A stretch of DNA of 64,000 bases from Nitrococcus mobilis Nb-231 (GTDB lineage: Bacteria > Pseudomonadota > Gammaproteobacteria > Nitrococcales > Nitrococcaceae), in the NCBI RefSeq assembly GCF_000153205.1, contig NZ_CH672427.1, forward strand, positions 2,086,541 through 2,150,540, written 5' to 3'. A program made the position numbers and the translations under genes. The first letter of the stretch is position 1; each line of letters starts with the position of its first letter. Below, piece after piece: positions 4,474 through 20,705 of this stretch. The notes under the pieces are model-generated. The model ran no database searches. It worked only from the letters and a program-made list of their open reading frames with translations, and was not told the origin of the DNA.

Positions 4474-6027
4474 ATGATGGAAATTTTTGCGGATCCCACG
4501 GTCGGGCTTGGCCTGCTGACGCTGATCGTGCTCGAGCTCATCCTCGGCATCGACAACCTCATCTTCATCGCCATCCTCGCCGAAAAGCTACCACCTCATC
4601 AGCGCGACAGGGCACGCCTTATCGGTCTGAGTCTCGCGCTGATGCTGCGCCTTGGCCTGCTCGCCGGCATGTCCTACCTCGTGACGCTCACCGCTCCGCT
4701 GTTCAGCGTGTTCGAACACGGCTTCTCGGGTCGTGACCTCATTTTGGCGGCGGGCGGCGTGTTCCTGTTATTCAAGGCTACGATGGAGCTGCATGAGCGT
4801 CTCGAAGGCGGCGCGCAGCGCCGCGAAGGGCCTAAAGCGCACGCGGCTTTCGGCATCGTGATCACACAAATCGTCGTACTCGATGCGGTGTTTTCGCTGG
4901 ACGCCGTCATTACGGCCGTCGGCATGGTCGAGCAATTATGGGTGATGATGGCCGCGGTCGTGATCGCCATAGCCGCGATGATGTTGGCGAGCAAACCACT
5001 GACGCACTTCGTCAATGAACGCCCGACCGTAATCGTGCTCTGCCTTGGTTTCTTGTTGATGATTGGCTTTAGCCTCATTGCCGAGGGCTTCGGCCTGCAT
5101 ATTCCGAAAGGCTATCTCTACGCGGCCATCGGTTTTTCGGTGTTGATCGAATTCTTCAATCAAGTAGCCCGCCGCAACCGCGCCAAGCAGGCCATGAAGC
5201 GCCCTCTGCGCGAGCGCACCGCCGATGCCGTGTTGCACCTACTCGGTGGGCACATCGAGGCTGAAACACCATTGCCCGTCATTGCAGCCGGCGCCGAAGC
5301 CGTATTCGCACCCACCGAACGGCAAATGATTCGCAGCGTACTGGAACTCTCGCAACGCGAGGTCGAATCCATCATGACGCAGCGCCGCGACATCGTCTGG
5401 CTGGATTTGGACCGCGCCAAAGAGGCGCTGCTCGAGTCGATCAAAACGGCGCCGCACACGCGCTTGCCCGTCGCGCGTGGCGCGTTGGATGCCTTTGAAG
5501 GTGTGGTGCAAAGCCGCGATCTGTTACGCAACCTGCTGGAACAGCGAGAGCTGGACATCGAGCGCGCGATCACCCAACCCCTGGTCGTCCAGGAGGGCGC
5601 GAGCGCGCTGTGCGTATTGGAGCAATTGCGCCACCATCCGGTACCTCTGGCGATCGTGGTCGACGAATACGGCAGCATCGAGGGGCTGATCACCGTCAAT
5701 GACATTCTGGCCGCAATTGCCGGCGACTTCGTCGATACGGCGGATACCGATGCGCTGCCGCAACCGATAGGCGAGGACGTCTGGCTAGTCCCCGGCGCCT
5801 TTCCGATCAAAGAACTAGACCGTCTGCTGGATACGGCTCTGCCTTATGACGGTGAATACCGCACGCTTGCGGGTTTGTTGCTGGATCGTCTCGGCCGCAT
5901 TCCGGCCGTGGGCGAGTCACTGCAATGGCAGGGCCACCGCTTCGAGATCCGCGAACTGGACGGACCGCGGATCGTGCGGGTATGGATTCAAAAGGCGGAA
6001 ACACAGCCCGCCGAGAGAGTACCGTAG
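4474..6027 (+). CDS. TerC-family membrane protein with CBS pair and CorC/HlyC domain
   Basis: 517 residues, matching the length of the E. coli YegH/YoaE class. Residues 1-230 form a TerC-type membrane domain with about seven helices, including [11 protein letters not shown] and [14 protein letters not shown], whose acidic residues in the membrane are typical. Residues about 300-420 form a CBS pair (HTRLPVARG, then [18 protein letters not shown]). The rest is a CorC/HlyC transporter-associated domain. Members are thought to act in metal-ion export or envelope homeostasis; the substrate is not known here. Two ATGs lie side by side at 4474 and 4477, with no strong ribosome-binding site. Confidence 0.88.
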
Positions 6028-6114
6028 TGCAAACACGTTCGCGCGCTCCGCCTGCGCGCAGCCCGCCCATATCTGCTACTACTTGGAAATACGCAGCCCG
6101 GCGCCTCACAACTC

Positions 6115-7167
6115 TCAGAGCTCGGCGAATTTCGCCTGTAGCGCTCGGTCGCCGCACCTTGCGAGCGCATCCCGCAAGCGCGCTGCCAGTTTTACGTTGC
6201 CTTTATGGGGCACCAGCGTTTCCACCATGTCGTCAACCACGCGCGGACCGGATGCTTCGATGAGCGATGCAAGCCAATCGAAAGCGGGTTCACTGCGATG
6301 TATAGCCGCGGCGCGGAGCAGCGCGCGACGGAAAGCCGGCGGCAGCAGCACGTCGTTCCAAGCCTCCTGCAGCGCATCCAGCGCACCTTCCAAGCGCGAT
6401 TCGCCAAGCGCCAGCGCGGCCAGTTCGCGGACCGTCTCGTCCGGATCCGACAAGTAGCGTGCGACGAATGCGAGCGACTCATCCGGCTCCACCCCGAGCA
6501 ATCCCATAAAGCATTCACCAATGACGTGGCCCTCCGGATCACCGGCAAAGACTTTGGACCGCAGCAACAACTCGGCTTCGCGCGGATTGCCGCAGGCAAT
6601 CGCACGCGCGGCGCCCGCGCGGGCCTCGGCTTCCGGGTCGTGGAGCAATGCTGTCAATTCCACCAATGCGTGCGCATAACCGGTGGCGACGAGGCCCATG
6701 GCGCAGCTACAGCGCACATCGACAGCCGTGTCGATCGCACCGCCCCATACCGGCCCCTGCTGCCGATACCGCAAACCAGCGAGAAAAAATGCCGCATCAT
6801 CGCACTCGAGGTCCACGAGTGCGCGCGCGATGGCTTTTTTTGCGAGGCAATTGGGGTCGCGCTTGACAGGCTGCTCGAGAAAGCACGGATACGCAGCCAT
6901 GAGATTCGGCACCGCCTCGTAGAGTAAATCGTTGGCGGCCAAACGCGCGGCCTTTGCCACGACCCGATAACGCCGCTCACCAAGCGCGTCTTGGATTCGA
7001 GCAAGCTTAATTGACGGGTCACGCTCCACCGCCAAAGCATCCAGGGCACTCAGCTTTTCATCGATTGATTTTCGTGTTGGCATCGTTGGCGGCGGGCCCG
7101 ACTTTCCGACAATCGCCAGGCTTGCGTAAAGCGCGCTACCCACCCAGCGCTTAAGCAATGGCTTCAC
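6115..7167 (-). CDS. HEAT-repeat protein, last gene of the peptide-export operon
   Basis: 350 residues from a GTG start whose first bases overlap the stop of the sigma-54 regulator gene, so translation is probably coupled. From about residue 90 it is made of helical pairs of HEAT/PBS-lyase type, such as DPEAEARAGAARAIA and DPDETVRELAALALGESRLEGALDAL. No enzyme motif is visible. Such repeats are protein-binding scaffolds, so a partner in the export operon is a reasonable inference. The first 30 residues are hydrophobic and could be a weak membrane anchor, or the true start may be the ATG for MPTRKSIDEK further in. Confidence 0.75.
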   Translation of the reverse strand: MKPLLKRWVGSALYASLAIVGKSGPPPTMPTRKSIDEKLSALDALAVERDPSIKLARIQDALGERRYRVVAKAARLAANDLLYEAVPNLMAAYPCFLEQPVKRDPNCLAKKAIARALVDLECDDAAFFLAGLRYRQQGPVWGGAIDTAVDVRCSCAMGLVATGYAHALVELTALLHDPEAEARAGAARAIACGNPREAELLLRSKVFAGDPEGHVIGECFMGLLGVEPDESLAFVARYLSDPDETVRELAALALGESRLEGALDALQEAWNDVLLPPAFRRALLRAAAIHRSEPAFDWLASLIEASGPRVVDDMVETLVPHKGNVKLAARLRDALARCGDRALQAKFAEL

Positions 7168-8447
7168 ACTGTCTTACCGGGCCGGAACGACTTGGCGCTG
7201 AGACCGTGCTTTTTGAGCAGGGTCTGCAAATAAGAGCGATTCATTCCCGTGTGCTTGGCGAGCACGGTCACCTTGCCCCCGACCTCCCGTAACCGTTGCT
7301 CGAGAAAAATGCGTTCGGCCTGATCGCTGGCGATGCGTTTGATGTCGCTCAGCGAATCCGTCGCACCAGACGAATCGGGCTCCACCAAAATCCGCTCGGG
7401 TGAACGCGCCCGGGCGCCCTCCGGCAGATGCTTTAGATCCGCCGTTCCGTCGGCCAGACAGGAGATACGAAAAATGATGTTGCGCAGTTCTCGGATATTG
7501 CCTGGATAAGCATAGCTCAGCAGAAACTGGCGCAGGCGCGCCGCGAGTTGAACCGGGGGCCGTTGCAACTGCTCTGCGGCCTCATCGCAGAAATAGTCGA
7601 TCAGTAACGGGATTTCGTCGCGGCGCTCGCGCAGCGCAGGAATGACCACGTGAATGACGCTCAGCCGGTAGTAGAGATCCTCCCTGAAACGCCCTTCCTG
7701 ACTCATTTGGTAGAGATCTCGGTTGGTGGCCGCCACGATTCGGGCATCCACCGCAATCGACTCATCGGAGCCAACACGCTGGACCTCCTGGGACTGCAGG
7801 ACACGCAACAGCTTGACTTGGCCCTGCAGCGGCAGTTCCCCGATCTCATCGAGGAAGATCGTGCCACCGTTGGCGCTCTCGAACTTACCTTTACGATCAC
7901 TGGCCGCGCCGGTAAAAGCACCCCGCTTGTGCCCGAACAGCTCCGATTCGATCAAATTCTCCGGTATGGCGCCGCAGTTGACCGAGATGAATGCCCCGCT
8001 GCTGCGTGGGCCGTTTGCGTGAATCACCTTGGCGAGGAGTTCTTTGCCGGTTCCGCTCTCCCCTTCGATGAGCACGGGCAAATTGGTCGGTGCGGCTTTC
8101 TCGCCGATCTCCAGGGCCTCGAGGAGCTTCGGACTCTCACCGAATACCCCCTCGAAGATAAAGCTGCGATCGATCAGCGCCTGACGGCGTTGCGGCGCAC
8201 CCGCCGGGTGCTCGGCAACCGGTGTGGCCGCCTCGGAGACTTGCCCGGCGCTGGCCTGGACAAACCGCTCCTTGCGGGAGAGCGTCATCACCTTGGTGCG
8301 CAACTCATTGCAGCGGCCCAGCAGCTTCTGGATTTCCGTGCGGTCAAGCTGTTGGGCCCAGCGCAACGTCGATCGCAGAATCTCGAGTTGCTCCAACAAC
8401 TCGCCGTAGGCGCTTGTGGCAGGTTTCTTGAATGTAAATTGTTTCAT
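7164..8447 (-). CDS. Sigma-54-dependent enhancer-binding AAA+ regulator
   Basis: 427 residues. Residues about 1-100 form a short helical N-terminal region unlike a receiver domain. The AAA+ core has Walker A GESGTGKE, the sigma-54 contact loop GAFTGA and Walker B TIFLDEIGEL. The C-terminus is a Fis-type helix-turn-helix (VTVLAKHTGMNRSYLQTLL). It would activate sigma-54 RNA polymerase from enhancer sites. Its ATG overlaps the stop of the ABC exporter gene (ATGA), placing it in the export operon. A GG-N10-GC promoter element at 18552-18567 upstream of the operon is the obvious target. The signal sensed by the N-terminal region is unknown. Confidence 0.92.
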   Translation of the reverse strand: MKQFTFKKPATSAYGELLEQLEILRSTLRWAQQLDRTEIQKLLGRCNELRTKVMTLSRKERFVQASAGQVSEAATPVAEHPAGAPQRRQALIDRSFIFEGVFGESPKLLEALEIGEKAAPTNLPVLIEGESGTGKELLAKVIHANGPRSSGAFISVNCGAIPENLIESELFGHKRGAFTGAASDRKGKFESANGGTIFLDEIGELPLQGQVKLLRVLQSQEVQRVGSDESIAVDARIVAATNRDLYQMSQEGRFREDLYYRLSVIHVVIPALRERRDEIPLLIDYFCDEAAEQLQRPPVQLAARLRQFLLSYAYPGNIRELRNIIFRISCLADGTADLKHLPEGARARSPERILVEPDSSGATDSLSDIKRIASDQAERIFLEQRLREVGGKVTVLAKHTGMNRSYLQTLLKKHGLSAKSFRPGKTV

Positions 8448-11400
8448 CGGGCACCGGCGATCTGTTTCTGCACTAATTGATAGTACATGCCCTTCTTGTT
8501 TACCAGATCCTGATGCGGCCCCTCCTCCACGAGCCGCCCTTGGTAGAGCACCAAGATTTTGTCGGCTTCCATGACCGTGCTCAGCCGATGCGCGATAACC
8601 ACCGCCGTGCGGCCTTTCAGGATTTCACGCATGCTCTTGAGAATGTTGCTCTCCGATTGGGTATCGAGCGCCGAGGTCGCCTCGTCAAACACCAGCAGGT
8701 TAGGGTCATGGTAGAGCGCACGCGCGATGCACAGGCGCTGAACTTGACCGCCGGAAAGCCCCATGCCGCGCTCGCCGACGACCTGCTGGTAGCCGAGCGG
8801 GAAATTGCTGATAAAGCCGTGCGCATCGGCAAGCTTGGCGACTTCAACGATCCGGCGTTGATCCGGATTCTCTTCCCCGATGGCGATGTTCTCGGCCAGC
8901 GTGCCCGAGAAGAGCAGATTGTTCTGCATCACGTAGCCGATATGGGCGCGGAAGTATTCCTTGTCGATCAGGCTCAAATCATAGCCATCGACGCTGATCC
9001 GGCCCTCCGTCGGCAGATAGAACCCCACCAGCAGCTTGGAGAGCGTGGTCTTACCGGATCCACTTTGGCCGACAACCGCAACCACCTCCCCAGGTTTGAT
9101 CGCGAAACTGATATTCTCCAACACATAAGGGTTTTCCCTGCCGCCATAACGGAAATAGACACCCTCGAAACGGATATCGCCACGCAAATCCGGCAAAACG
9201 ATCCGCGTGCTGACCTCTGCAGCTTTTTGTTCGGGTTCGAGATCCAGCACGTCCCCCAACCGTTCCATGGCAACGCCGGCCTCGTTGATCTGATCCCACA
9301 GCCCGACCAGCCCCATCAGGGGTGACATGACGCTGCCCATCAGCATATTGAATGCAATCAGCTGGCCAATGGTCAGTTCCTGGTTGAGCACCAGATTAGC
9401 ACCCACCCAAAGAATAACGATGGTCGTTGTGGCGCTGAACAGTTGCCCCAACGTCCCGACGATGGTCTCGAAGCGCTGTGCCTGATAATTCACTTCGAGC
9501 GATTTGGCGTATTTTTTTTCCCACTTGAGACGCAGCGAGCGCTCGATGCCCATACCCTTAACCGTCTCCGCCGCGGCAAGCGTCTCCATCAAGGTCGACT
9601 CCGCATCGGTGGAAGCCGTAAAGCTCGAGCGGGCATAGTTTTTTATCTTCGGCGTAATCAAAACCGTCAACAGCACGATCGGGACGATCAGCATAATCAG
9701 CAGCAACGTCATCTTGACGTTGTAAAGAAACAGCACGATGAAATAGACGAACACCATCAGCAGATTAAGCAGGGTGGTGATGGTCGACTGCGTGAGAAAG
9801 GCCCGGATCGTCATGTTTTCTTGGAAGCGGGCGAAAATGTCCCCGGTCTTACGGGTGGAGAAAAACGAAATGGGTAACGACAGTGTGTGCTTGAAAAACT
9901 GCGACATCATGGCGAAATCGAGATTTCGGACCATGAAGCTCGCAAGAAAGCCGCGCAATAAATTAGTGAGCTGAGTAAAAAGATGCGCGATCACCAGGCC
10001 GATGATCAAAATATGCAGCAGCTGAAAGCTCTGATGCACAACCACCCGATCGAGGATATTCTGCACGATGATCGGTGGCGCAACCCCGAGCAGCTCGATG
10101 ACCAACGTCGCCATAGCCAAATACCCAAGAATGCCCTTGTAGGGCCTGAGATAGCCTACAAAGCGTACCCACGGCGAGCGCCCGGTGGCGATCTGCACCA
10201 TTTCCGTACCGGGCGTGAAGAGCAAACAGGTGCCGCTCCAACCTTTCTCGAACTCCTCCAGCGTCATCTTGTTGAAGCCGAGCGCCGGATCGGCGATCCA
10301 GACATGGCTTTTGGAAACGCCGTAGACGACGATGTAGTGGTAGCCTTCCCAGTGGGCAATAAAAGGCAAGTCGAAGCCCAGCAACGCTTGATAAGTGCAT
10401 TTGACCGCCCGTGTAGTAAACCCGAGCGACTCGCCCACACGTGCCAAGCTATCCAACGTCGCACCCTCGGTCGTGACATTGGCCAGCTCACGCAGCTTGC
10501 CGAGCGTCATGGGGATGCCGTAATGCTTGCAGATCATCGCCAAGCAGGCCGCGCCGCAGTCCATCTCCTCGGCCTGCGCCACCAGCGGGAAGCGTTTTAG
10601 CACACGCTCGCCCAGCCCGGGCCGGCTCGTAAGGTCGAGCAGCACTCGTCGACCACGGCGCTCGGCGAGCTTCTTCTGCCGCAGCAGATCGCGTTCGAGG
10701 AAACGGATGCGCTCCTCGAGCAGTTCCCTGAGCTTCGGATTGCGCTCGAGAATGAAATGAACCGTTTGCTGCGTAATAACAATAAGCGTGGTGTCGCTAT
10801 CGGCAATCGCGCTGGCCACTTGCTCTTGTTGGAGCAGGCAGGCCTTCTCTCCGAACACGTCGCCTTGACGTAGACTGGCCAGCGGATAATCCCGCCCTTC
10901 CTCCGTGCGCATCAACCGAACCCGGCCTTTGCGGATCACAAAGAGCCGTTGCTCATCGCGCGCGTCCTGCTCCACGATCACTTGACCGGGTCTGACCCGC
11001 TTGACCCCGATGCTGCGGATGAGCTCCTCAAGCTCGTTTTTGTCCACTTTGCGGCGCAGGTCGAACAACCGGGTGACAAACCCTCCGGCCGCTTGGATGG
11101 CGGCGTAATGGGCGATATAGGTTTCCGCCTGCTTGTTGTCCGCGAGAATCGCGCTAAAGGCCGCTCGCGGGATATGGATCAGTTCGGTTCGCGACGAGGC
11201 ACGCACCGAGGATTCATGGCGGTAATCACGCAAGGCGGCGATCTCGGCGAAGACCTCGCCTTCCTTGCGAATCCCCATGCTGATTTCTTTGCCCCGATCC
11301 TCGGTGAAAACCCTGACCGCGCCGGATTTGATGATGTACAACCCAGTTTCTGGCTCGCCGGCGTTGCAAACCGTATCGCCGAAATCGTACACCTTGATCT

Positions 11401-11554
11401 CGGCCTGACTTCCCAGTACGGCCAGCTGCTCGCGGCTGAAGGCAGAGAGGATTTCGACTGTGGCGAGAAAATCGGTGAGCGCTACTGTATCCACTGGTTG
11501 CTCTCCCTCACGCCTTCGCTTCGGGGCCGTGCTCAGCCGCCGCGCCAAACTCAT
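8444..11554 (-). CDS. Peptidase-containing ABC exporter with two N-terminal cyclic-nucleotide-binding domains
   Basis: 1,036 residues. Two Crp-like cNMP-binding domains cover about residues 30-150 and 165-290. A C39 peptidase domain follows, with catalytic Cys333 (AQAEEMDCGAAC), His406 (GYHYIVVYGV) and Asp422 (IADPA), suited to cutting leaders after Gly-Gly. Six membrane helices follow, then an ATPase domain with Walker A GQSGSGKTT (829-837), LSGGQ (933-937), LLVFDE (953-958) and the switch His989. It would process and export the peptides encoded at the head of the operon. The double cNMP module suggests gating by a nucleotide messenger; both ligand sites need testing because the usual phosphate-binding Arg is not obvious in either. 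Confidence 0.95.
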   Translation of the reverse strand: MSLARRLSTAPKRRREGEQPVDTVALTDFLATVEILSAFSREQLAVLGSQAEIKVYDFGDTVCNAGEPETGLYIIKSGAVRVFTEDRGKEISMGIRKEGEVFAEIAALRDYRHESSVRASSRTELIHIPRAAFSAILADNKQAETYIAHYAAIQAAGGFVTRLFDLRRKVDKNELEELIRSIGVKRVRPGQVIVEQDARDEQRLFVIRKGRVRLMRTEEGRDYPLASLRQGDVFGEKACLLQQEQVASAIADSDTTLIVITQQTVHFILERNPKLRELLEERIRFLERDLLRQKKLAERRGRRVLLDLTSRPGLGERVLKRFPLVAQAEEMDCGAACLAMICKHYGIPMTLGKLRELANVTTEGATLDSLARVGESLGFTTRAVKCTYQALLGFDLPFIAHWEGYHYIVVYGVSKSHVWIADPALGFNKMTLEEFEKGWSGTCLLFTPGTEMVQIATGRSPWVRFVGYLRPYKGILGYLAMATLVIELLGVAPPIIVQNILDRVVVHQSFQLLHILIIGLVIAHLFTQLTNLLRGFLASFMVRNLDFAMMSQFFKHTLSLPISFFSTRKTGDIFARFQENMTIRAFLTQSTITTLLNLLMVFVYFIVLFLYNVKMTLLLIMLIVPIVLLTVLITPKIKNYARSSFTASTDAESTLMETLAAAETVKGMGIERSLRLKWEKKYAKSLEVNYQAQRFETIVGTLGQLFSATTTIVILWVGANLVLNQELTIGQLIAFNMLMGSVMSPLMGLVGLWDQINEAGVAMERLGDVLDLEPEQKAAEVSTRIVLPDLRGDIRFEGVYFRYGGRENPYVLENISFAIKPGEVVAVVGQSGSGKTTLSKLLVGFYLPTEGRISVDGYDLSLIDKEYFRAHIGYVMQNNLLFSGTLAENIAIGEENPDQRRIVEVAKLADAHGFISNFPLGYQQVVGERGMGLSGGQVQRLCIARALYHDPNLLVFDEATSALDTQSESNILKSMREILKGRTAVVIAHRLSTVMEADKILVLYQGRLVEEGPHQDLVNKKGMYYQLVQKQIAGAR

Positions 11555-11601
11555 CGCTGCTTAGTAAAACCCATCCCCCTAAAAGCAGCCATCACGAGAA
11601 A

Positions 11602-12354
11602 CTAAAGCACTTCCAGGCGATGCTCTTGAGCGCGGGCCTCAAGCCAGGCCCGGTAGACCAGACGGCGCACTTCTTTCTCGGTTTCAGTATCGAGAATGGC
11701 CGGATGCCTCGCCTCGACCTTGAAGATTTCATAGAACAGCTCATCGGGGGTTTGGAACGGCCCCAGTAATTCGCCTGCCGAAGCGTTGAAAACCTTGGCT
11801 TCGATCTCGTCCTGCAGCTCGCCGCGCAGTACCTTACCCACCAGCCCACCGTTGTGCTTGGTATCATCGTCGAGTGAGTGCTCGCGCGCGAGCTCCGCGA
11901 ACATATCGGGCTCTTCCTCGGCGAGCGAGAGGATCTCCCTGGCCTTGTTCTCGGAGTCCACGACGATGTGGCTTATTTCGATGCCTTCGAATTTGGGTGA
12001 GTTGAGACTGAAATACTCCTGAATGGCCTCGTCCCGACGAACTTCCTCCAGCATTTTCTCCTTGTATAAGGTATCGCTTATATAGGCCTCAAAATCATCT
12101 AGGCTGACCCCCAACTGCTGTAGGAACTCCTGCGTATCCTTGGCCCGATGCAGACCTTCGACGCGGCGTATTTGATCGAAACGCTCCTGAATCTCCTCGA
12201 GCGTAATATTGATGCCCGCCCGTTTCGCGGCATGCACCGTGAGCTTTTCGCTGACCAGCTCTTCAATCAAATTATCGAAGGTCCCATTGAGTTTTAACCA
12301 CTTCACCAGCCCATCCGCGCTGATTGTCTCTTCGTCGATTTTTGCAACTTGCAT
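11602..12354 (-). CDS. Parvulin-type peptidyl-prolyl isomerase without signal peptide
   Basis: 250 residues. The N-terminal helical part resembles the SurA/PpiC chaperone arm. The parvulin domain spans about residues 125-215, with ISHIVVDSENKAREIL, FAELAREHSLDDDTKHNGGLVG and ELLGPFQTPDELFYEI. There is no signal peptide or membrane segment, so it should act in the cytoplasm, unlike SurA or PrsA. It sits 41 bp after the HlyD gene and 47 bp before the exporter gene in the operon. A role in keeping peptide substrates unfolded or presenting them to the exporter is inference. A good ribosome-binding site (GAGGT) precedes the ATG. Confidence 0.88.
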   Translation of the reverse strand: MQVAKIDEETISADGLVKWLKLNGTFDNLIEELVSEKLTVHAAKRAGINITLEEIQERFDQIRRVEGLHRAKDTQEFLQQLGVSLDDFEAYISDTLYKEKMLEEVRRDEAIQEYFSLNSPKFEGIEISHIVVDSENKAREILSLAEEEPDMFAELAREHSLDDDTKHNGGLVGKVLRGELQDEIEAKVFNASAGELLGPFQTPDELFYEIFKVEARHPAILDTETEKEVRRLVYRAWLEARAQEHRLEVL

Positions 12355-12395
12355 TATGGGTTACCTCAGTTTTCCGCGCCTGGTGCGCAACCGAA

Positions 12396-13787
12396 TCACC
12401 AGGCTGTTACCTCGCGCAGCGGATCCAGCGCTAGATCGATCAGACGCCGCTTGCGCACAACGATCTCGGCCGTACCGCTCATGCCGTAGCGCAGCGGAAT
12501 CTGCGTGTTACCTACGGAAAAGGAGTCCCGCTGCAACCCGATACGGCCTTTGTAAGTCGGCTGCTTGTTTTGCGCATTTGCGCTGGCCGTCGGAGAAATA
12601 TACTCCAGGGTCCCTTCGATCAAGCCGTAGCGCTGGTACGGAAAGGCAGGAAACTTTAGCTTGGCCGGCATACCCTCCTGCAAAAAGGCTCGCTCCGTCT
12701 CCCCGATGGCCACCTGCAGCACCGGGCGCGCGCCGGCCGGTGCGATGCTCGCGATGGGCTGCGCCGCGACCACTTTGTCCCCCGGCTGGGTCAACGCCAA
12801 TCTCGTAATCACACCGGCGACGGGTGCGCGCACCAACAGCAAATTCTCCTCATCAATGTCATCGAAGCTGACCCTTGCCGCCCCTTCGGCGGTTGCTCGC
12901 GCGATGCGCAGCTGCAATTGCCCCTCATTTTCCAGGGTGGCCAACTCGAGTTTCTTTTGCGCATACTGGGTACGCAGGCTCAAGAGCTTCTCTGCAGTCT
13001 GCTGGACCTCCGCCTGGCTGCTTTGGTACACCTTGCTCAAATCGACCTCGAACTGTGCCAGCTCGGCTCTGGCCAGATCATAGGTGGTTTGCTTGGCCGC
13101 ATACTCGCGGCGCTTGGTGTCCACTTGCTGGCGTGAGAGACCACCACCGCCCGGCGAGCGGAATAGACGTTCATACTTTTCGGCTTCCGCACGCGCGTAG
13201 TCGAGCTCGTTTTTCGCCTCCCTCAGTTGCGCGCGCGCCTTACCGAGCCTGATGCGCTGCTCTTCACCGAGCTTGGCGATGGCTTGATTGACGCGCTTAT
13301 CATGCAACCGCTGCGCTTGGTCGATTTGAACCCGCAATAGGTTGAGCTGCTGCTCTAAGACACGGATGCGATCCGGGAGCAAATCATGTTGCTGCTGGGC
13401 ATCAGTCAGCTTCAACTTAGCCTGCAGGGCCTGGGTCGCGAGCTGGATGGCATCGACGGCTTCGACCCGGGCCAGCACGTCACCTTTGGCAACGGGCATC
13501 CCCTCTGCGAGATAAATATTGACCAACTCACCATCGACCGGCGAATAAATGCGCCGCTCTTCCCCGTCGGGCCCGAGTACACCGCCGGCTTGGACGATGA
13601 CATCGGCATGGCCGATAAAAGACCAGGCGGCACCCGCCAGCAGCAGCGCGAAAAGCAATAAAATCAATACCCGGATCAGCCGCGACGGCTCGGAGGAGAG
13701 AATCGTGATTCCTTCGGCACTGTGATCCTCCAGAGCGTCTTGCAAACGCGGCTGGTAAAGTACAGGCCTTTTATCGCTCATGGTCAA
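12396..13787 (-). CDS. HlyD-family membrane fusion protein (type I secretion adaptor)
   Basis: 463 residues. A single membrane helix near residues 38-60 (VLILLLFALLLAGAAWSFI) anchors it in the inner membrane. A lipoyl half-motif follows (VYSPVDGELVNIYLAEGMPVAKGD-like region), then a long coiled coil at about residues 115-290, a second lipoyl half (LLVRAPVAGVITRL) and a beta-barrel domain. It would bridge the ABC exporter to the outer-membrane channel. The start overlaps the end of the FHA gene by 17 bp; a second ATG two codons later is equally possible. Its neighbours on both sides fit a complete tripartite exporter. Confidence 0.93.
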   Translation of the reverse strand: MTMSDKRPVLYQPRLQDALEDHSAEGITILSSEPSRLIRVLILLLFALLLAGAAWSFIGHADVIVQAGGVLGPDGEERRIYSPVDGELVNIYLAEGMPVAKGDVLARVEAVDAIQLATQALQAKLKLTDAQQQHDLLPDRIRVLEQQLNLLRVQIDQAQRLHDKRVNQAIAKLGEEQRIRLGKARAQLREAKNELDYARAEAEKYERLFRSPGGGGLSRQQVDTKRREYAAKQTTYDLARAELAQFEVDLSKVYQSSQAEVQQTAEKLLSLRTQYAQKKLELATLENEGQLQLRIARATAEGAARVSFDDIDEENLLLVRAPVAGVITRLALTQPGDKVVAAQPIASIAPAGARPVLQVAIGETERAFLQEGMPAKLKFPAFPYQRYGLIEGTLEYISPTASANAQNKQPTYKGRIGLQRDSFSVGNTQIPLRYGMSGTAEIVVRKRRLIDLALDPLREVTAW

Positions 13788-16182
13788 CCGCCTCCAATGG
13801 GCCCGGCAGCAGCGCCAGTTTGGCCTTCAACAACGAGGCATTCATTACGATGCGCATGTCCTCGAGCCACTGGCGCTGACGTTTGATCTCGGCGAATAAA
13901 TTCTCATAGAGCTGCTGAGCCGGTGCTGGAGCGGCCTTCTGGAGCAGCGCATAGGTGCGCATCATGTGGCCCGCCTGCTCGAAGGCGCGCGAGAGCGCCC
14001 CGGCCTGGCGCCGGAAGGCAGCCGAGACGACATCCTCCAGGCGCAGCAAACCATCGATGCCGCCCTTGGCCTGATAGCGCGACCACTCCCTGCTGGCCTG
14101 TTGGAATTGGTGCTGCACATCAAGCAGCGCCTGTGCTCGATAAGTCTGGAAATCACCGTTGAGGGCGCGGTGCATATGCGCATCACCGATCGGATCCAAG
14201 CGATTATAGAAGGCGAGCAACCTGCCTCCGTAGTCTGCACTGTCTCGGGCCTGCTGCAACGCGCGGTAATCTTGCAAAACCTTTTTATAGCGCTGCAACC
14301 GTTGCTGCGCCACCTTACTCCACGGCTGACCGGCAAGCCCCTGCAACAGCTCGAAGGCGGGATCCCAATCACCCCCAGCCCAGGCGCGCTCCGCTTTTTC
14401 ATACTCTGCGGCGATTTCGGGTGGCGGGAGCTTTACGGCGATCTGCGCCTGTGCCGCTTCACGAAACAGCGGCGTCGCGAATTGGCCATGCCGACTCAGC
14501 CGCAACGCCGCATCGAGGTCCTGGCTGCGAATCGCCGTCTGAATCGCCTGCCAACGCTCCAGATCCAGCCAAACGCGTTGCATACCGCCGATGCGCGGAT
14601 ATTGGCTCTGGAACGCCTTGAGTACGTCCGTCAATTCGCCCGCGCGATCGGCCGCCAAATCATTCCGAATGGTTTGCGTAAGCTGGGCAATCGCATGCAA
14701 ATAGCTCGATTTCTCATTTTGCAGGCCCGCCAAGTGGCTTGCCACGCGTGCCCCTACGGGCCGGCATTCGGGCACATAGTCCATGAGCCGGGTCAGCCGA
14801 TTCCGATGGCCACGGGAGTCGTTCTCCCACCACTCGACCAATTCGCTGATCAACGCCTCGTCGTGGAAGATGACGATTGGGGCTTGGGGGCCGCCGCGCT
14901 CGACTATGAATCGCTCCAAGCGGCCGGCCCATTCGAGCAGGGCCAGCATCTTCCGCGCATCGTCATTGAACCGGCTCAATTGAGCGGCGGATGCGAGGGC
15001 CTGCTCAGCCCCTTTGAAATCGCCGTCCTCCAGCCGTGCTATCCAGACAGGCACCACCTGGTTAGCTACAGACTCCGTACCGAGTAGACTGATCCGTTCG
15101 TTGTCGGGATGCGCCTCCAGATAGCGCTCGGCCATTGCGGCGCTGTCGGCATACCGCTGCTCGGCCATGAGTTCATGGATGGCTCGCTCAGGACTGCCTT
15201 TGAGATAAAAGCCCAACGCGAGCGCCACCGTCAGCAACCCGCCGGCCGGCAGAAGCCAGAGCCAGCGGCGTCTCGGACGATTCGGCTGCTCATCGGTAAA
15301 AGCCAGTTTGAGCTCGGCCAAGAAAATGCGCACTCGCCCGAACAACCCCTCGCGCCGCGGCTTGCCGACGCCTCGCTTGGCCTTGGCCTTGGCAAGGGCC
15401 GGGTTGTCCGCGCTGGCCTCGTCGGTATCGGCCGGAGCATCGACCTCCGGACAGAACGCATCGAGGAAAGAGTCCGCCGCCGTGACGAAAATGGTTCCCG
15501 GCTCTTGGCTGAACGCCTCGGCCACAACCGGCCCCAACTCCATGCGATAGCTGAAAAATTTCCCTCCGAAGGCAATGTTTGCGCGGTCTTCGAGCCGAGC
15601 ACCGGTCACCAGGCGCCGTCCATCTAGGAAAGTACCGTTAGTGCTGCCCAAATCCTCGACATACAGGCCGTCTTGCTGCCGAAAGATCAGCGCATGACGG
15701 CGGGATATATAGCGGCTCTCCTCGGGAAAATGCGTCTTGTAGCCTGAAAACACACCCACATCCTTGCCGATCAGGAAGGGGAAGTGATCGATGACGATGG
15801 GCTCGAGTGGAGTGTTCTCGGACGTCGGTACGAGAACCAACGTCAACGGCGCAGCGCCGGGCTCGGGCCGTTGTGGCTCGGAAATTTCGATTCGAAAGCA
15901 TATCTGCCCCGCAAAACACAGCTCGTCGCCATCCTGTAGAGTCACCGCACGCTTGTGCACGGCCCGGCGGTTGACGGTCGTGCCACCACGACTGCCGAGG
16001 TCTACCACATGCAGCGTATCCTGCTGGCGGAACAACTTCGCGTGGCTCGCTGACAAGCCCACGGCCGCCCCATCAGAAAGCGCGGCAAAAGGTGCCTCGT
16101 TGCGACCGACGGTAAAGAGATCGTCACGCACGACGATCTCTCCGAGCTCTGGATGAGACAGCGGCTTGAGCGTGAATTTCAT
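13771..16182 (-). CDS. Twin-FHA membrane protein with large C-terminal domain
   Basis: 803 residues. The first FHA domain is at about 15-100 (FTVGRNEAP, then VVDLGSRGGTTVN). The second is at about 130-215 (FLIGKDVGV, SRRHALIF, VEDLGSTNGTFLDG). A basic linker leads to one membrane helix at about 307-326 (WLWLLPAGGLLTVALALGF). The remaining 470 residues are helical and TPR-like (MAEQRYADSAAMAERYLEAHPDNE) and should be periplasmic. FHA domains bind phosphothreonine peptides. The layout (cytoplasmic FHA, one helix, periplasmic body) recalls YscD-type secretion ring proteins, but no sequence homology is claimed. It lies between the TolC-like and HlyD genes. Confidence 0.85.
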   Translation of the reverse strand: MKFTLKPLSHPELGEIVVRDDLFTVGRNEAPFAALSDGAAVGLSASHAKLFRQQDTLHVVDLGSRGGTTVNRRAVHKRAVTLQDGDELCFAGQICFRIEISEPQRPEPGAAPLTLVLVPTSENTPLEPIVIDHFPFLIGKDVGVFSGYKTHFPEESRYISRRHALIFRQQDGLYVEDLGSTNGTFLDGRRLVTGARLEDRANIAFGGKFFSYRMELGPVVAEAFSQEPGTIFVTAADSFLDAFCPEVDAPADTDEASADNPALAKAKAKRGVGKPRREGLFGRVRIFLAELKLAFTDEQPNRPRRRWLWLLPAGGLLTVALALGFYLKGSPERAIHELMAEQRYADSAAMAERYLEAHPDNERISLLGTESVANQVVPVWIARLEDGDFKGAEQALASAAQLSRFNDDARKMLALLEWAGRLERFIVERGGPQAPIVIFHDEALISELVEWWENDSRGHRNRLTRLMDYVPECRPVGARVASHLAGLQNEKSSYLHAIAQLTQTIRNDLAADRAGELTDVLKAFQSQYPRIGGMQRVWLDLERWQAIQTAIRSQDLDAALRLSRHGQFATPLFREAAQAQIAVKLPPPEIAAEYEKAERAWAGGDWDPAFELLQGLAGQPWSKVAQQRLQRYKKVLQDYRALQQARDSADYGGRLLAFYNRLDPIGDAHMHRALNGDFQTYRAQALLDVQHQFQQASREWSRYQAKGGIDGLLRLEDVVSAAFRRQAGALSRAFEQAGHMMRTYALLQKAAPAPAQQLYENLFAEIKRQRQWLEDMRIVMNASLLKAKLALLPGPLEAVDHER

Positions 16183-16218
16183 AGCCGACCCGCCCCCAAA
16201 CGGCGCACTCGGGGGCTG

Positions 16219-17646
16219 TTACTCCTGCAGCGTTTTGGAGACGATTTCCGACGGCCAACCGCCTCCCAACGCCTTGTACAACGTGATGGTGTCACTGAGA
16301 ATCTGCTGGTGTAACGTAAGCGCCAACAGCTCGGCCGACAACAGCCTACGCTGCGATTCAAAGACCTGCAGCTGCGAGACCAGGCCGATCTTAAGCTGAG
16401 CCCTAACCTGTTCATTAACGGTTCTGAGATCCTTGAGCTGATCCTTGAGCGCTTGCATCTGCCTCTTACGAAAAGCCAAGCTCACCAACGCGTTTTCGAC
16501 TTCCTCATAAGCCGTGATAACGGTCCTGCGGTACTGCTGCGCTGCGATTTTGGCGCGCGCCTCGTTGACATTGACGTTCGCCTTGAGCGAGGCATCGAAG
16601 ATCGGCACGTTAATGGCCGGAGCAAGTCCAAACGTAAAGCCTTTGAGCAATGATGACAGCACGCTGCTTACGGCCCCACCATTGGCCGTCAGGCTAAAAG
16701 ACGGTAAGCGAGCGAGCCGGGCCTGCCCGATCAGATCATAGGCCTGCAGCACACGATACTCGGCGGCAATGATATCAGGCCGGCGCGAGAGCATATCGGC
16801 TGGCAACCCAGCTGGGACATGGGGTACGCGCACACGCTCGAGCTGCCCCACGACCGGCACCTTGAATTCACCAGCCGGCGTACCCAGGAGCGTAGCCAGC
16901 TGGTTTTCCGCGACTTGGCGCTGGCGCTCGAACTCCAATAGCAGCTGCCGCATATCGCTGCCCTCGGCGCGCTGCTGCAGCACCGCGGTCCTTGCTACCA
17001 GCCCGTCCCGGTACTGTCTCTCATAGATCGCCAGAATCTGCTGGTTATTTACCAGGAACTTTTGCTGCTGGCCACGCTGCTCATCGAGTTGGCGGATCAA
17101 AAAATAAATACTGGCAACATCGGAGGCAAGCGTCAGGTAACCGGCGCGCCAATCCGCCTGCGAAGCACGCACGGCCGCCTGCTGAGCCTCGACCCCCTTA
17201 CGCAGCTTACCCCAGATGTCGATCTCCCAGTTCAACGCGCCACGCGCACTGTACTGGTGGGTAGTGGTCGGATCGGCAAACTCTCCAGGGAGAATCTCAA
17301 CACGAGAACGGGTCACGCTTGCCTGCGTCGTCGCATTTACGGTCGGCAGCCTCGTTGCCTGCGCCTGCCCTACGGCCGCGCGGGCTTCTGCGATGCGCCC
17401 CGCCAGGATCCTGAGGTCTATGCCCTGAGCAACGGCTTGCCGAATGAGGCTATTAAGATAAGGGTCCTGAAAACCACGCCACCAGTCGGGTTGAATGGCG
17501 TTGGCAGCAGCAATCCCGGTGGGATTCGCCGACCAGGTCGACTTGCTCGGCGCCTGCGGGGTCGTGTACTCGGGGCCGAAAAAGCTACTGCAGGCACTCA
17601 GCAGCCCAAGACTCATTCCGACAAAAAGAGTGCGGCAGGCATTCAT
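16219..17646 (-). CDS. TolC/NodT-type outer-membrane factor lipoprotein
   Basis: 475 residues from the ATG at 17646. This start gives a short lipoprotein signal peptide with the lipobox LLSAC (Cys18 or 19). An ATG at 17697 has a better ribosome-binding site (GAAGAGGG) and adds 17 residues. Two outer-membrane-efflux repeats follow, with the family segments PDWWRGFQDPYLNSLI, RPDIIAAEYRVLQAYDLIGQARLARLPSFSL and ITAYEEVENALVSL. Members form trimeric channels across outer membrane and periplasm. The NodT type more often serves RND pumps than ABC exporters, so its use with a C39 exporter is noteworthy. It is transcribed after the two peptide genes. Confidence 0.92.
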   Translation of the reverse strand: MNACRTLFVGMSLGLLSACSSFFGPEYTTPQAPSKSTWSANPTGIAAANAIQPDWWRGFQDPYLNSLIRQAVAQGIDLRILAGRIAEARAAVGQAQATRLPTVNATTQASVTRSRVEILPGEFADPTTTHQYSARGALNWEIDIWGKLRKGVEAQQAAVRASQADWRAGYLTLASDVASIYFLIRQLDEQRGQQQKFLVNNQQILAIYERQYRDGLVARTAVLQQRAEGSDMRQLLLEFERQRQVAENQLATLLGTPAGEFKVPVVGQLERVRVPHVPAGLPADMLSRRPDIIAAEYRVLQAYDLIGQARLARLPSFSLTANGGAVSSVLSSLLKGFTFGLAPAINVPIFDASLKANVNVNEARAKIAAQQYRRTVITAYEEVENALVSLAFRKRQMQALKDQLKDLRTVNEQVRAQLKIGLVSQLQVFESQRRLLSAELLALTLHQQILSDTITLYKALGGGWPSEIVSKTLQE

Positions 17647-17840
17647 CGACGGCCGTTCGGCGCATTCATTGCCGCTTTTCGAGCGCTGGACTCCCATGGT
17701 CTGGTGGCCCTCTTCAAAGCCTACCGCCCTAGGTATAGAAGGGCTGCTATGGATTCGTTTTCCTAAAGTCTGGTACATGCTGCTCAGCGGTCAATGCGGG
17801 CACGCGCACAAAATGGACCGCCGAATCCGCCGCCGCCCAA

Positions 17841-18143
17841 TCAGGCCTTTTGATTCTGAACGATGACGGCATTTTGTTCGATTCGATTGTTGTCGCCGAT
17901 AGCCAGCGCAGTCTGCTGGACAACGGCATGCTGCACCTGAGAGGCACCCGCGCCGAGCGCCAGAGTCTGCGCAAAGACGAACGGCAACGGGAATCGGCGG
18001 CTGAACTTCTGCAGCATGCGTTGCATCGAGTATTGACGAGCCAGAGCCCCAAACAGAGCGCTACTGCCCCCTACAACACGCAGCCGCGCTTGCCGATCCA
18101 GGGTTTTCTCGACATTGAGGTCTTGGATCGTGAGTGCTGACAT
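17841..18143 (-). CDS. Double-glycine leader peptide B (putative secreted peptide)
   Basis: A 100-residue product with AGGAGA before the ATG. Residues 1-26 follow the leader pattern I6-x-D8-L9-x5-L15-D16-R17-Q18-A19-x3-V23-x-G25-G26. The predicted 74-residue core begins SSALFGALARQ. It contains the stretch QVQHAVVQQTALAIGD, which aligns with QIQVAVINNTVVGFGD in peptide A. It ends in a Gln/Asn-rich repeat (IGDNNRIEQNAVIVQNQ) reminiscent of curlin-type repeats. The gene follows a strong hairpin and precedes the outer-membrane-factor gene. It was recognised by pattern, not by a known family; secretion is inferred from the operon. Confidence 0.8.
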   Translation of the reverse strand: MSALTIQDLNVEKTLDRQARLRVVGGSSALFGALARQYSMQRMLQKFSRRFPLPFVFAQTLALGAGASQVQHAVVQQTALAIGDNNRIEQNAVIVQNQKA

Positions 18144-18171
18144 GATGCTCTCTCCTGTAATTACCTAGTCA

Positions 18172-18211
18172 AAATAGGCGGGGGGTTGTCGCAGGAAACC
18201 CCCGCCTATTT
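18172..18211 (-). terminator. Strong intercistronic hairpin between the two leader-peptide genes
   Basis: AAATAGGCGGGGG pairs with CCCCCGCCTATTT around a loop of about 10 nt. On the minus strand the stem is followed by TTTT, the layout of a leaky intrinsic terminator. It lies between peptide A and peptide B. It would make peptide A mRNA more abundant or stable than the downstream transport genes, as is common in bacteriocin operons. Confidence 0.75.
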
Positions 18212-18223
18212 AGGGCCGGACGC

Positions 18224-18475
18224 TCAGGCGCGCTGGCCTTGACCAATGATTCCGCTTACACCGAATGGCTTCAAATCGCCAAACCCCACCACCGTATTGT
18301 TGATGACGGCGACCTGAATCTGCGGAGTGATCGTTTGATTCAGAACAATAGGAGACGGGAAAGGCTTCAAATACCCACCACCCCAACCGCCATTCACTCC
18401 ACCCTTTACTCGCCGGCTCGCCTGCCGGTCCAACGCTTTAGCCACGCTCAGGTCACGAATCATAATGTTCGCCAT
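18224..18475 (-). CDS. Double-glycine leader peptide A (putative secreted peptide), first gene of the export operon
   Basis: 83 residues from the ATG at 18475, chosen over a GTG three codons upstream because AAGGAG lies 8 nt before it and because it gives a 26-residue leader. That leader follows I6-x-D8-L9-x5-L15-D16-R17-Q18-A19-x3-V23-x-G25-G26, the same positions as the peptides at 17841 and 1576. The 57-residue core starts VNGGWGGG and contains QIQVAVINNTVVGFGD, shared with peptide B. There is no Cys, so no disulfide or thioether cross-link is possible. A sigma-54-like promoter lies 77-92 bp upstream and a strong hairpin just downstream. Confidence 0.8.
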   Translation of the reverse strand: MANIMIRDLSVAKALDRQASRRVKGGVNGGWGGGYLKPFPSPIVLNQTITPQIQVAVINNTVVGFGDLKPFGVSGIIGQGQRA

Positions 18476-18551
18476 ATCTTGCACTCCTTCCTAACTGTCG
18501 ATTGCAGAGATTTTCATTCCGAGAGCACAATGCCCTCGTTGCCTAACGTAA

Positions 18552-18567
18552 TGCAAATTGCATGCCG
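18552..18567 (-). promoter_or_regulatory. Candidate sigma-54 (-24/-12) promoter of the peptide-export operon
   Basis: On the minus strand the sequence is CGGCATGCAATTTGCA. The GG and GC are exactly 10 nt apart and the -12 element TTGCA is perfect (consensus TGGCAC-N5-TTGCA; two mismatches in the -24 box). Transcription would start near 18541, giving a leader of about 65 nt before peptide A. The operon encodes a sigma-54 activator. The rest of the 18485-18885 intergenic stretch is AT-rich and must also hold the promoter of the divergent minD-like gene, which I cannot place. Confidence 0.6.
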
Positions 18568-18885
18568 TAAATTGCAAAAGGTGAAAATTAAAAGTACCTA
18601 TATGATTTTCAATAATTTAATTATAGGACGGAGATTACGATGAGCCACCAGGATGCGCCCCGGCCAATCAGAAAACGTTTTTTATTAGCAAACCTTTTCT
18701 ATTGAAAGAGTTGTCCGGGTAAACAATCGAACATAACCCTGTGAGCCTCCCGGCCAGATCACCGCCCGAAGCTCACCCATACAACCGGTCGGATGGCCCT
18801 AGGATCGATACAGAATCTAGAATTAAGGTAGAGCAGCATCGCAAGACCCTGGTGGGCTCTAGCGGATGCAACAATCACAAGGGGC

Positions 18886-19665
18886 ATGACGATGGCGCAA
18901 ATCGTATCGGTACACTCCTACCGAGGCGGAACCGGCAAGAGCAACATCACAGCAAACCTCGCCTTCCTGCTGGCAAAGCGAGGACAGCGCATTGCCGTGC
19001 TGGATACGGACATCCAATCGCCCGGGGTTCACCTGATCTTCGGTATCGAGCCCGAGCGCATGGTCTACACTCTCTCCGATTTCGTATTCGGCAAATGCGA
19101 GCTGGCTGAAACGGTCTACGATATCGATCACAACTGCGGCTTGGCTGATTCAGCCGGCAAGCTCTATTTGTTACCCTCCAGCCTGGCGGTGGACGACATA
19201 TCCCGCGTGGTTGGCGAAGGCTATGATGTCCACTGCTTTAGTAGAGAGTTCAAGCAGCTCATCGCCGAGTTACAACTCGATTTCCTGTTTCTGGACACGC
19301 ATCCGGGACTCAACCGGGAAACCCTGCTCACCGCCGCCATCTCCGATCAATTGCTGATCCTCCTGCGGCCGGACAAACAGGATTACCATGGAACAGCGGT
19401 CCTACTGGAGGTGGCAAGCCGCTTGCAAGTGCCTAACATTTATCTGGTGGTCAACAAAGTAGCCGAACGCGTTGATTCGGAGACGATGCGCAACCAGATT
19501 CGTTCAGCCTATGGCTATGAGGTGATCGGTATTCTGCCTTTGGACGCAACGATGGCCATACTCGGCAGCCGGGAGCTGTTCGTCGGATGCCAGCCACAGC
19601 ATCCGTTGACCAAAGAACTGATCGCCATCGCCGCACGTCTTATGACCGACGGAAATGCATGCTAA
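18886..19665 (+). CDS. MinD/ParA-family ATPase
   Basis: 259 residues. The deviant Walker A is YRGGTGKSN; the usual first lysine of KGGxGK is Arg here. Switch region DTDIQSPGVH and Walker B FLFLDTHPG follow, then LVVNKVAERV as the base-binding loop. The C-terminus lacks a clear amphipathic membrane helix of MinD type. Such ATPases position or regulate membrane machines (divisome, flagella, pili). It is divergent from the peptide operon and overlaps the patatin gene, which suggests a spatial or assembly role for the export system. That role is inference. The ATG at 18892 is an alternative start. Confidence 0.88.
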   Translation: MTMAQIVSVHSYRGGTGKSNITANLAFLLAKRGQRIAVLDTDIQSPGVHLIFGIEPERMVYTLSDFVFGKCELAETVYDIDHNCGLADSAGKLYLLPSSLAVDDISRVVGEGYDVHCFSREFKQLIAELQLDFLFLDTHPGLNRETLLTAAISDQLLILLRPDKQDYHGTAVLLEVASRLQVPNIYLVVNKVAERVDSETMRNQIRSAYGYEVIGILPLDATMAILGSRELFVGCQPQHPLTKELIAIAARLMTDGNAC

Positions 19666-20705
19666 CCATAGGAAGCCGCAAACGCTCGGGCCGAATCCGG
19701 TGGCCATCCCGCGGCCGGAACATGGCCGCAACGAATAGCCTCGATCGTCAAAAAACGATCGAATCGCAACTGGAAGCGGAGGACTACAGCACGCTGCACC
19801 GCCTGGCAACGGCCGGCGAACATCGCCTGGTCGTCTCGCTCGGTGGTGGCTCCACCGCGGGATTGTGCGGCAATATCGCCCTCATCCACCTGCTTGAAGA
19901 GCTGGAACTTAAGCAGCATATTAGCGAGCTTTGGGGAACCAGCGCCGGTGCAATCGTCGGAGGAAGCTGGACCACCGGCACCACCGCCGCCGAGATGCTC
20001 GCCACAATCCGTAATCTCGACTCTAAAGATACGGTCGATCTATGCCACGTGGCCATCCTGCGCTCCTTGCTGCTACGCCCGTTCGGGCGATTCCTACCCG
20101 ATGGCCTCATCCAAGGCCGACGGCTTGCTTTGTTGATCGATGCAGGCCTGAAGGTCAAAGACTTTCAAAGCTGTACCATCCCGTTTCGCTGCATCGCCTG
20201 TAGCGACGACGGCCGCAATCGCCGCAAGGTCTTCCGCAAGGGACTGCTGTTACCCGCTATCCTCTCCAGTATGAGCCTGCCCGGCATTCTGGCCCCGCGG
20301 CCTGCCCTCGAAGGCGAGGAATGTGGTTACTACGACGGCGGATTAGTAGAGAAGACCCCATTGATCTCGCCGATCGCCGAGCACCTGCGCAGCGGGGACA
20401 AGCGCAAGCTCTTGCTGATCGCCACCCATTTCAGCGGCGATGAGCGCCGCAAACCCGCACACGGCTTCATCCACCGCTTCGTGCAGAGCATCTACGCACT
20501 CGAGGAGGCACTATGGGGGTATCAGCTCAAGGAAGCGCGGCAGCGCTACCGGGATAAGGTTACCCTCTTGCTCTTGAACCCTCATATCGTCGAACCAACG
20601 CTGTTTGACTTCAGCCACGTTACCGAGCACTACCTGCGGGCACGCGAGAATTTCAAGCACAAACTGCGCAACGGCTCGCTCGCCTTGACTTTCGGCGCCG
20701 ACTAG
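19659..20705 (+). CDS. Patatin-like phospholipase
   Basis: 348 residues if started at the ATG that overlaps the minD-like stop; an ATG at 19722 (327 residues) is an alternative. The patatin catalytic dyad is clear: oxyanion loop GGGSTAG, nucleophile GTSAG, and DGG in YYDGGLVEKTP. Patatins are serine acyl hydrolases acting on membrane lipids. No signal peptide is seen, so it should be cytoplasmic or membrane-associated. Translational coupling to the MinD-like ATPase suggests they act together. The stop codon overlaps, on the opposite strand, that of the FHA gene by 4 bp, so the two genes converge with no terminator between them. Confidence 0.9.
   Translation: MLTIGSRKRSGRIRWPSRGRNMAATNSLDRQKTIESQLEAEDYSTLHRLATAGEHRLVVSLGGGSTAGLCGNIALIHLLEELELKQHISELWGTSAGAIVGGSWTTGTTAAEMLATIRNLDSKDTVDLCHVAILRSLLLRPFGRFLPDGLIQGRRLALLIDAGLKVKDFQSCTIPFRCIACSDDGRNRRKVFRKGLLLPAILSSMSLPGILAPRPALEGEECGYYDGGLVEKTPLISPIAEHLRSGDKRKLLLIATHFSGDERRKPAHGFIHRFVQSIYALEEALWGYQLKEARQRYRDKVTLLLLNPHIVEPTLFDFSHVTEHYLRARENFKHKLRNGSLALTFGAD

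Follow-up and report, generated by a model that had tools for sequence, protein, structure and literature searches.

Which promoter serves the small peptide genes at the head of a predicted export operon in Nitrococcus mobilis Nb-231, and does the sigma-54 activator encoded near the far end of that operon act back on it? The window, by which we mean the whole stretch of 64,000 nucleotides that was analysed, carries on its minus strand a candidate −24/−12 element in front of two genes for short GG-leader peptides, A and B. The original prediction had placed a sigma-54-type promoter here, with exact GG-N10-GC spacing and a perfect −12 box just before peptide A. The features of this promoter and leader region are as follows.

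18676–18694, minus strand: candidate dyad GGTTTGCTAATAAAAAACG, which begins 127 bp ahead of the box, at the place of the paralogue sequence TGTT-N11-AACA
18552–18567, minus strand: sigma-54 −24/−12 box CGGCATGCAATTTGCA, read from the letters
18541, minus strand: predicted transcription start, from box geometry, 12 nt past the C of the −12 GC
18520–18538, minus strand: 5′-terminal mRNA hairpin CGAGGGC..GCTCTCG, from folding (−11.7 kcal/mol, z −2.1)
18224–18475, minus strand: peptide A, 83 aa, with the GG-type leader MANIMIRDLSVAKALDRQASRRVKGG; orthologues and paralogues found
18172–18211, minus strand: strong hairpin between peptides A and B (−24 kcal/mol, z −3.2)
17841–18143, minus strand: peptide B, 100 aa, with a GG-type leader and without a good box of its own

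Read on the minus strand from 18567 to 18552, the letters are CGGCATGCAATTTGCA, and ten bases separate the GG from the GC, exactly as had been predicted. The box matches all 12 specified positions of YGGCAYG-N4-TTGCW, the pattern that we take to be the consensus and used for scoring. The −24 element is CGGCATG, with C where the consensus TGGCACG has T. The box ends 76 bp upstream of the peptide A ATG at 18475, which agrees with its proposed place just before that gene. The motif by itself occurs at close to the chance level in both window and genome, which rules out bare motif statistics as proof of a promoter: with at most one mismatch the pattern is found 4 times in the 64-kb window against 3.9 expected, GGN8TTGC alone 52 times against 53 expected, and the exact pattern 8 times in the 3.62-Mb genome against 5 for its reversed form. 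The weight of the evidence thus rests on the place of the box and its conservation.

With peptide A as the query, five further full-length paralogues came up in its own genome and others in two genomes of the genus. Fifteen promoter regions of the genus were found in all; one (G034_C30), with 18 bases before the peptide at a contig end, was left out, and two others (G034 C79 and C28) were kept even though the contig ends before any peptide gene. GG-N10-GC is kept in all 14 of the resulting homologous regions, which come from three genomes of the genus. In the two orthologous loci, TGGCAGGTAAATTGCA and TGGCACATTGTTTGCA, GGCA and TTGCAT are invariant and the bases around and between them have diverged, the −24 elements having T at the position of the window's C together with other departures (TGGCAGG, TGGCACA). 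A genome-wide scan with an extended motif, the box plus conserved 5′-leader bases, gives exactly six perfect matches, one in front of each of the six peptide genes, with no match at one mismatch and three at two (reversed control, 1); since the motif was built from these sequences, it matches them by construction, and what is informative is the lack of further ones.

This pattern of conservation bears on two readings in which the site is not a promoter of this kind. A chance motif, with peptide A transcribed from another promoter, would account for the small excess of exact genome matches over reversed ones, but would leave unexplained why the box persists in orthologues, paralogues and distant clusters, and we consider it very improbable. 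The window sequence can also be read, by eye, as the imperfect palindrome ATGCAAATTGCAT, and the conserved bases could then belong to an operator for some other regulator. The alignment contradicts this, since the palindrome is gone from orthologues and paralogues while GG-N10-GC stays; of the readings considered here, this is the least probable. On the comparative sequence evidence, 18552–18567 is very probably a real sigma-54 promoter, a proposal now strongly supported by orthologues, paralogues and distant clusters that keep the box and its distance, many of them with an upstream dyad as well.

Beyond the two peptide genes, the minus strand carries the following genes.

16219–17778, minus strand: outer-membrane channel of NodT/TolC type (TIGR01845 over cut-off); the true start may be further downstream
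13771–16182, minus strand: protein with two FHA matches (PF00498) and, by eye, one membrane stretch
12396–13787, minus strand: HlyD-type adaptor (PF13437)
11602–12354, minus strand: PpiC/SurA-type peptidyl-prolyl isomerase (PF00639)
8444–11554, minus strand: ABC exporter with two cyclic-nucleotide-binding domains and a C39 peptidase domain (PF00027, PF03412, PF00664, PF00005)
7164–8447, minus strand: sigma-54 activator with GAFTGA and a conserved helix-turn-helix-like C-terminus (PF00158, PF25601)
6115–7167, minus strand: HEAT-repeat protein

The order of transcription would thus be peptide A, peptide B, NodT/TolC channel, FHA protein, HlyD adaptor, PpiC protein, ABC exporter, activator and HEAT-repeat protein. 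Three gene pairs overlap (FHA/HlyD; ABC/activator and activator/HEAT by 4 bp each), and the remaining gaps measure 36–80 bp. The C39 peptidase is fused to the ABC exporter and GG-leader precursors adjoin it, the arrangement that defines a C39 exporter, and peptides A and B and the paralogues would be exported after cleavage at the GG. The divergent ParA-like gene lacks a good sigma-54 box (best 7/12). Upstream of this gene and a patatin-like one, a 21-codon open reading frame with a good ribosome site lies at 18640–18705 on the plus strand and overlaps, by eye, the candidate dyad.

A GAFTGA-bearing activator near the far end of the operon had also been predicted, and one is present at 8447–7164, overlapping the end of the ABC gene. 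Its Sigma54_activat domain matches at E 1.5e-71, and a family search detected no receiver domain. The PF00158 match together with GAFTGA and ESGTGKE, present in 31 of 31 activators from this and related loci, marks it as an enhancer-binding protein. The C-terminal stretches MNRS and LLKKH are likewise invariant (31/31); the Walker B pattern matched only 5 of the 31 and was probably too narrow. The genome has one copy of rpoN that could be found; its sigma-54 activator domains number nine in nearly complete form, this one among them, and a further four matches are partial and weak.

The FHA gene, a single match in its own genome, was used to follow the system into other bacteria. Of 54 genomes of the order, four have strong relatives (its own, G033, G034 and G011) and two more have weak ones; outside the order, strong relatives were found in G248 and G215 (369 genomes of the class), in G722 and G656 (398 of the phylum) and in four plasmid or chromid records from Caballeronia and Burkholderia. 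With the FHA protein of G722 as the query, 157 of 398 sampled genomes of its family, probably the Burkholderiaceae, gave a match. Twenty of these 157, chosen before any look at promoters, were examined for the complete operon; with the window, the other relatives and three of the plasmid or chromid records they make up 31 loci, and the order TolC-FHA-HlyD-PpiC-ABC-activator is found in every one. Two of the five genus genomes have no FHA match, and no peptides were found in them (best E 0.5 and 0.7); both are fragmented metagenome assemblies (420 and 660 contigs), which makes the absence weak evidence.

Is the box tied to the peptide genes in these relatives as well? A regular expression for the leader alone found 48 leader-peptide reading frames in the 31 loci. 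A box scoring at least 10/12 ends 25–110 bp before the start in 32 of the 48, compared with 13 of 816 starts of reading frames of at least 150 aa and 291 of 18600 random places, counts that are not independent because the loci are related. One apparent false reading frame (L120 15847) was kept in the count, as were all 16 without such a box; by eye, several of these 16 are second genes behind a peptide, or belong to another, basic subfamily, or run into the end of a contig (L020 19829), and two score 9. In one locus, L025, no box scoring 9 or more lies closer than 1.5 kb to TolC, and the regular expression found no peptide. Cores of the 34 peptides whose box scores 9 or more have a median of 20% N+Q, figures that hold for these 34 alone, and the presence of Cys in just one of them makes Cys-based cross-linking unlikely.

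If an activator bound at a distance opens these promoters, a shared upstream site would be expected. The alignment of the genus regions suggested TGTT-N11-AACA, which is complete (8/8) in six of the 14 regions and 7/8 in three more. The window copy scores 6/8 and its orthologues 5/8 or fewer at the same place; in paralogue 368659 no dyad stands out clearly. In the 28 distant regions, searched 80–170 bp before their boxes, at least 7/8 is reached in 18, against 81 of 5000 random pieces; a longer form had been scored on this distant set beforehand, so that this test of the core was not blind. A sharper form, TGTYGG-N7-CCRACA, was derived from the same distant sequences, and in combination (box at least 9, dyad at least 10/12) it gives 67 sites in the 28 loci against 4 in reversed sequence, the dyad often lying at −115, −128, −150 or −162.

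In 24 of the 28 distant loci such a box-plus-dyad precedes TolC within 1.2 kb. It stands before the peptide in L121; in L082 and L131 it lies immediately ahead of TolC, no peptide gene being seen in between, and in L131 it is so close that TolC must begin at a later codon. L024 and L128 also have a box immediately ahead of TolC with no intervening peptide gene seen, but no strong dyad. The position of the box in these four loci supports direct control of the export operon. Of the 67 sites, 38 have a listed TolC or a peptide start found by the regular expression downstream, for one the sole listed downstream gene is the ABC gene, at a distance of 0.8 kb, and nothing is listed for the other 28. 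Inspection of eleven of these 28 placed seven before peptides that the expression had missed or that were cut, two before a gene with an LRAT domain, and the remaining ones (L020 1453 and L132 18503) before reading frames without a name. The LRAT-domain gene, with its own box-plus-dyad beside the cluster (L082:20901, L083:20687), is possibly a further member of the regulon.

These comparisons show the box and its conservation, the link to peptide genes, the gene order and, in many relatives, the dyad, and from them we put at roughly 80% the probability of a sigma-54 promoter with an upstream-bound, operon-encoded activator, a loop closed by read-through and five more peptide genes in the same circuit. 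Sigma-54 RNA polymerase would sit at the box, and the activator would bind the dyad some 110–165 bp upstream and open the promoter. Peptide A would be transcribed from about 18541, part of the transcripts continuing over peptide B and the genes for export as far as the activator. The same circuit would drive the five peptide genes elsewhere in the genome, and the one ABC exporter would cut the GG leader and export them all. As for signals, we guess that the likely inputs are the exporter's cyclic-nucleotide domains and the FHA protein.

The positive loop, which had been predicted from the position of the activator gene, is probably right: the activator is the last of six core genes in all 31 loci and such a loop is likely, but the strength of the hairpin between peptides A and B makes read-through to the activator uncertain. 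It could instead be that the sigma-54 promoter serves the peptides without any loop, because the hairpin at 18211–18172 ends most transcripts and the export genes and activator have another promoter, or because another activator is at work. Any of the eight other activator domains of the genome could act at the box, and the weakness of the dyad in the window copy would suit such an arrangement. It would not explain why the activator has remained linked to the operon in all 31 loci, nor the frequency with which the box-plus-dyad (24 of 28 distant loci) or, in L024 and L128, the box without a strong dyad is found ahead of TolC, including the cases, such as L082 and L131, where no peptide gene intervenes. 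A simple scan of the minus strand from 5800 to 19700 also found no sigma-70-like site. We regard this absence of a loop as unlikely, though a good deal more credible than the chance motif, and favour the autoregulated circuit.

The hairpins themselves recur. One begins at about +4 of the predicted start in all 14 genus regions, as judged by folding; compared with shuffled sequences it stands out only modestly (window z −2.1, L010 −0.9, L011 −1.6), and register and loop length vary in the alignment. In the distant loci, by eye, many predicted transcripts of TolC-side peptides open with a hairpin whose stem begins with CGAG or GAGC, like that of the window and perhaps an mRNA stabiliser, and those of activator-side peptides mostly lack it. 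The hairpin between peptides A and B is present in both orthologous loci and absent from a list of terminator-like sites; it is possibly a partial terminator or a 3′-end stabiliser. All 11 of the peptide 3′ ends that were folded have a hairpin, compared with shuffled sequence for the window one only.

How does this system relate to those already known? Its parts are of known kinds. Peptide A matches no Pfam or NCBIfam family at E 0.01, and the AlphaFold model of the peptide (mean pLDDT 46.6) has a leader helix only and no usable fold. In Gram-negative bacteria, C39 ABC exporters for GG-leader peptides are found with class II microcins and in cyanobacterial bacteriocin clusters, and the present locus resembles these in its C39-ABC protein, HlyD adaptor, outer-membrane channel and short GG-leader precursors. 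It differs in adding sigma-54 boxes, an activator and the FHA and PpiC-type proteins, and in precursors that are scattered over the genome and have N/Q-rich cores nearly without Cys (34 peptides). The exporter and adaptor are similar to those of NHLP/NHLM systems, whose NHLM models match, but with 555 bits (cut-off 853) for the exporter and 57 (cut-off 156) for the adaptor both are placed outside that group, and neither precursor, A or B, matches a family. PspF and NtrC, sigma-54 activators acting on their own operon or its neighbours, share with this system the GG-N10-GC box, an upstream dyad, here a candidate one, and a GAFTGA activator linked to the promoter; the window's activator differs in being tied to scattered genes for probable exported peptides and in having no detected receiver domain.

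In its features the system can also be likened to amyloid secretion by the Fap proteins of Pseudomonas, which likewise combines a C39-type peptidase with N/Q-rich exported subunits. The Fap peptidase is described as periplasmic and separate from any ABC exporter (PMC5557850), whereas the C39 domain in the window is part of the exporter. The portions consulted of two papers on sigma-54, in Paraburkholderia (PMC5979394) and Azoarcus (PMC3262810), do not describe this system, and no description was recognised among the literature matches listed; one may exist outside the literature searched.

The prediction for this one promoter missed the scope of what appears to be one activator-exporter operon and six promoter-linked peptide genes in the genome. 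The larger finding is a scattered set of peptide genes under one regulatory code, so that a peptide-export system without a recognised description is now tied to a precise signature, box plus dyad. The code can be used to search for substrates in any genome, and it points to the regulator through which the system could be tested. This nitrite-oxidising Nitrococcus is also given a whole predicted secreted-peptide programme. More tentatively, and with the odds slightly against it, we suggest a self-contained export system in which one sigma-54 activator runs its own exporter operon together with precursors across the genome that carry the box, the dyad and terminal mRNA hairpins, yielding N/Q-rich secreted peptides in bulk, perhaps as surface or matrix material, in response to phospho-threonine and cyclic-nucleotide inputs. 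The peptides are possibly secreted structural material, or else a bacteriocin.

Finally, several neighbouring genes may be recorded. Several members of the scattered peptide-gene set in the genus have motility genes nearby (MotB-type and PilZ in L039, MotA/MotB-type in L043, FliK-type and YcgR/PilZ-type in L041), and in L040 and L044 cyclophilin and hemerythrin genes are found near the peptide instead. Behind the activator-side peptide of L082 and L131 is a reading frame resembling, by eye, a PP2C-type phosphatase; such an enzyme would fit well with the FHA protein. The window itself encodes another GG-leader peptide, MARLAIKDLHENIELDQKAMKNIRGG..., at 1576–1743 on the plus strand. The core of this peptide is basic and its best sigma-54 box scores just 8; a near-identical peptide in G033 (L046) likewise has no good box. 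Short ‘GGA’ peptides resembling it are found near the clusters of L020, L082, L083 and L126.
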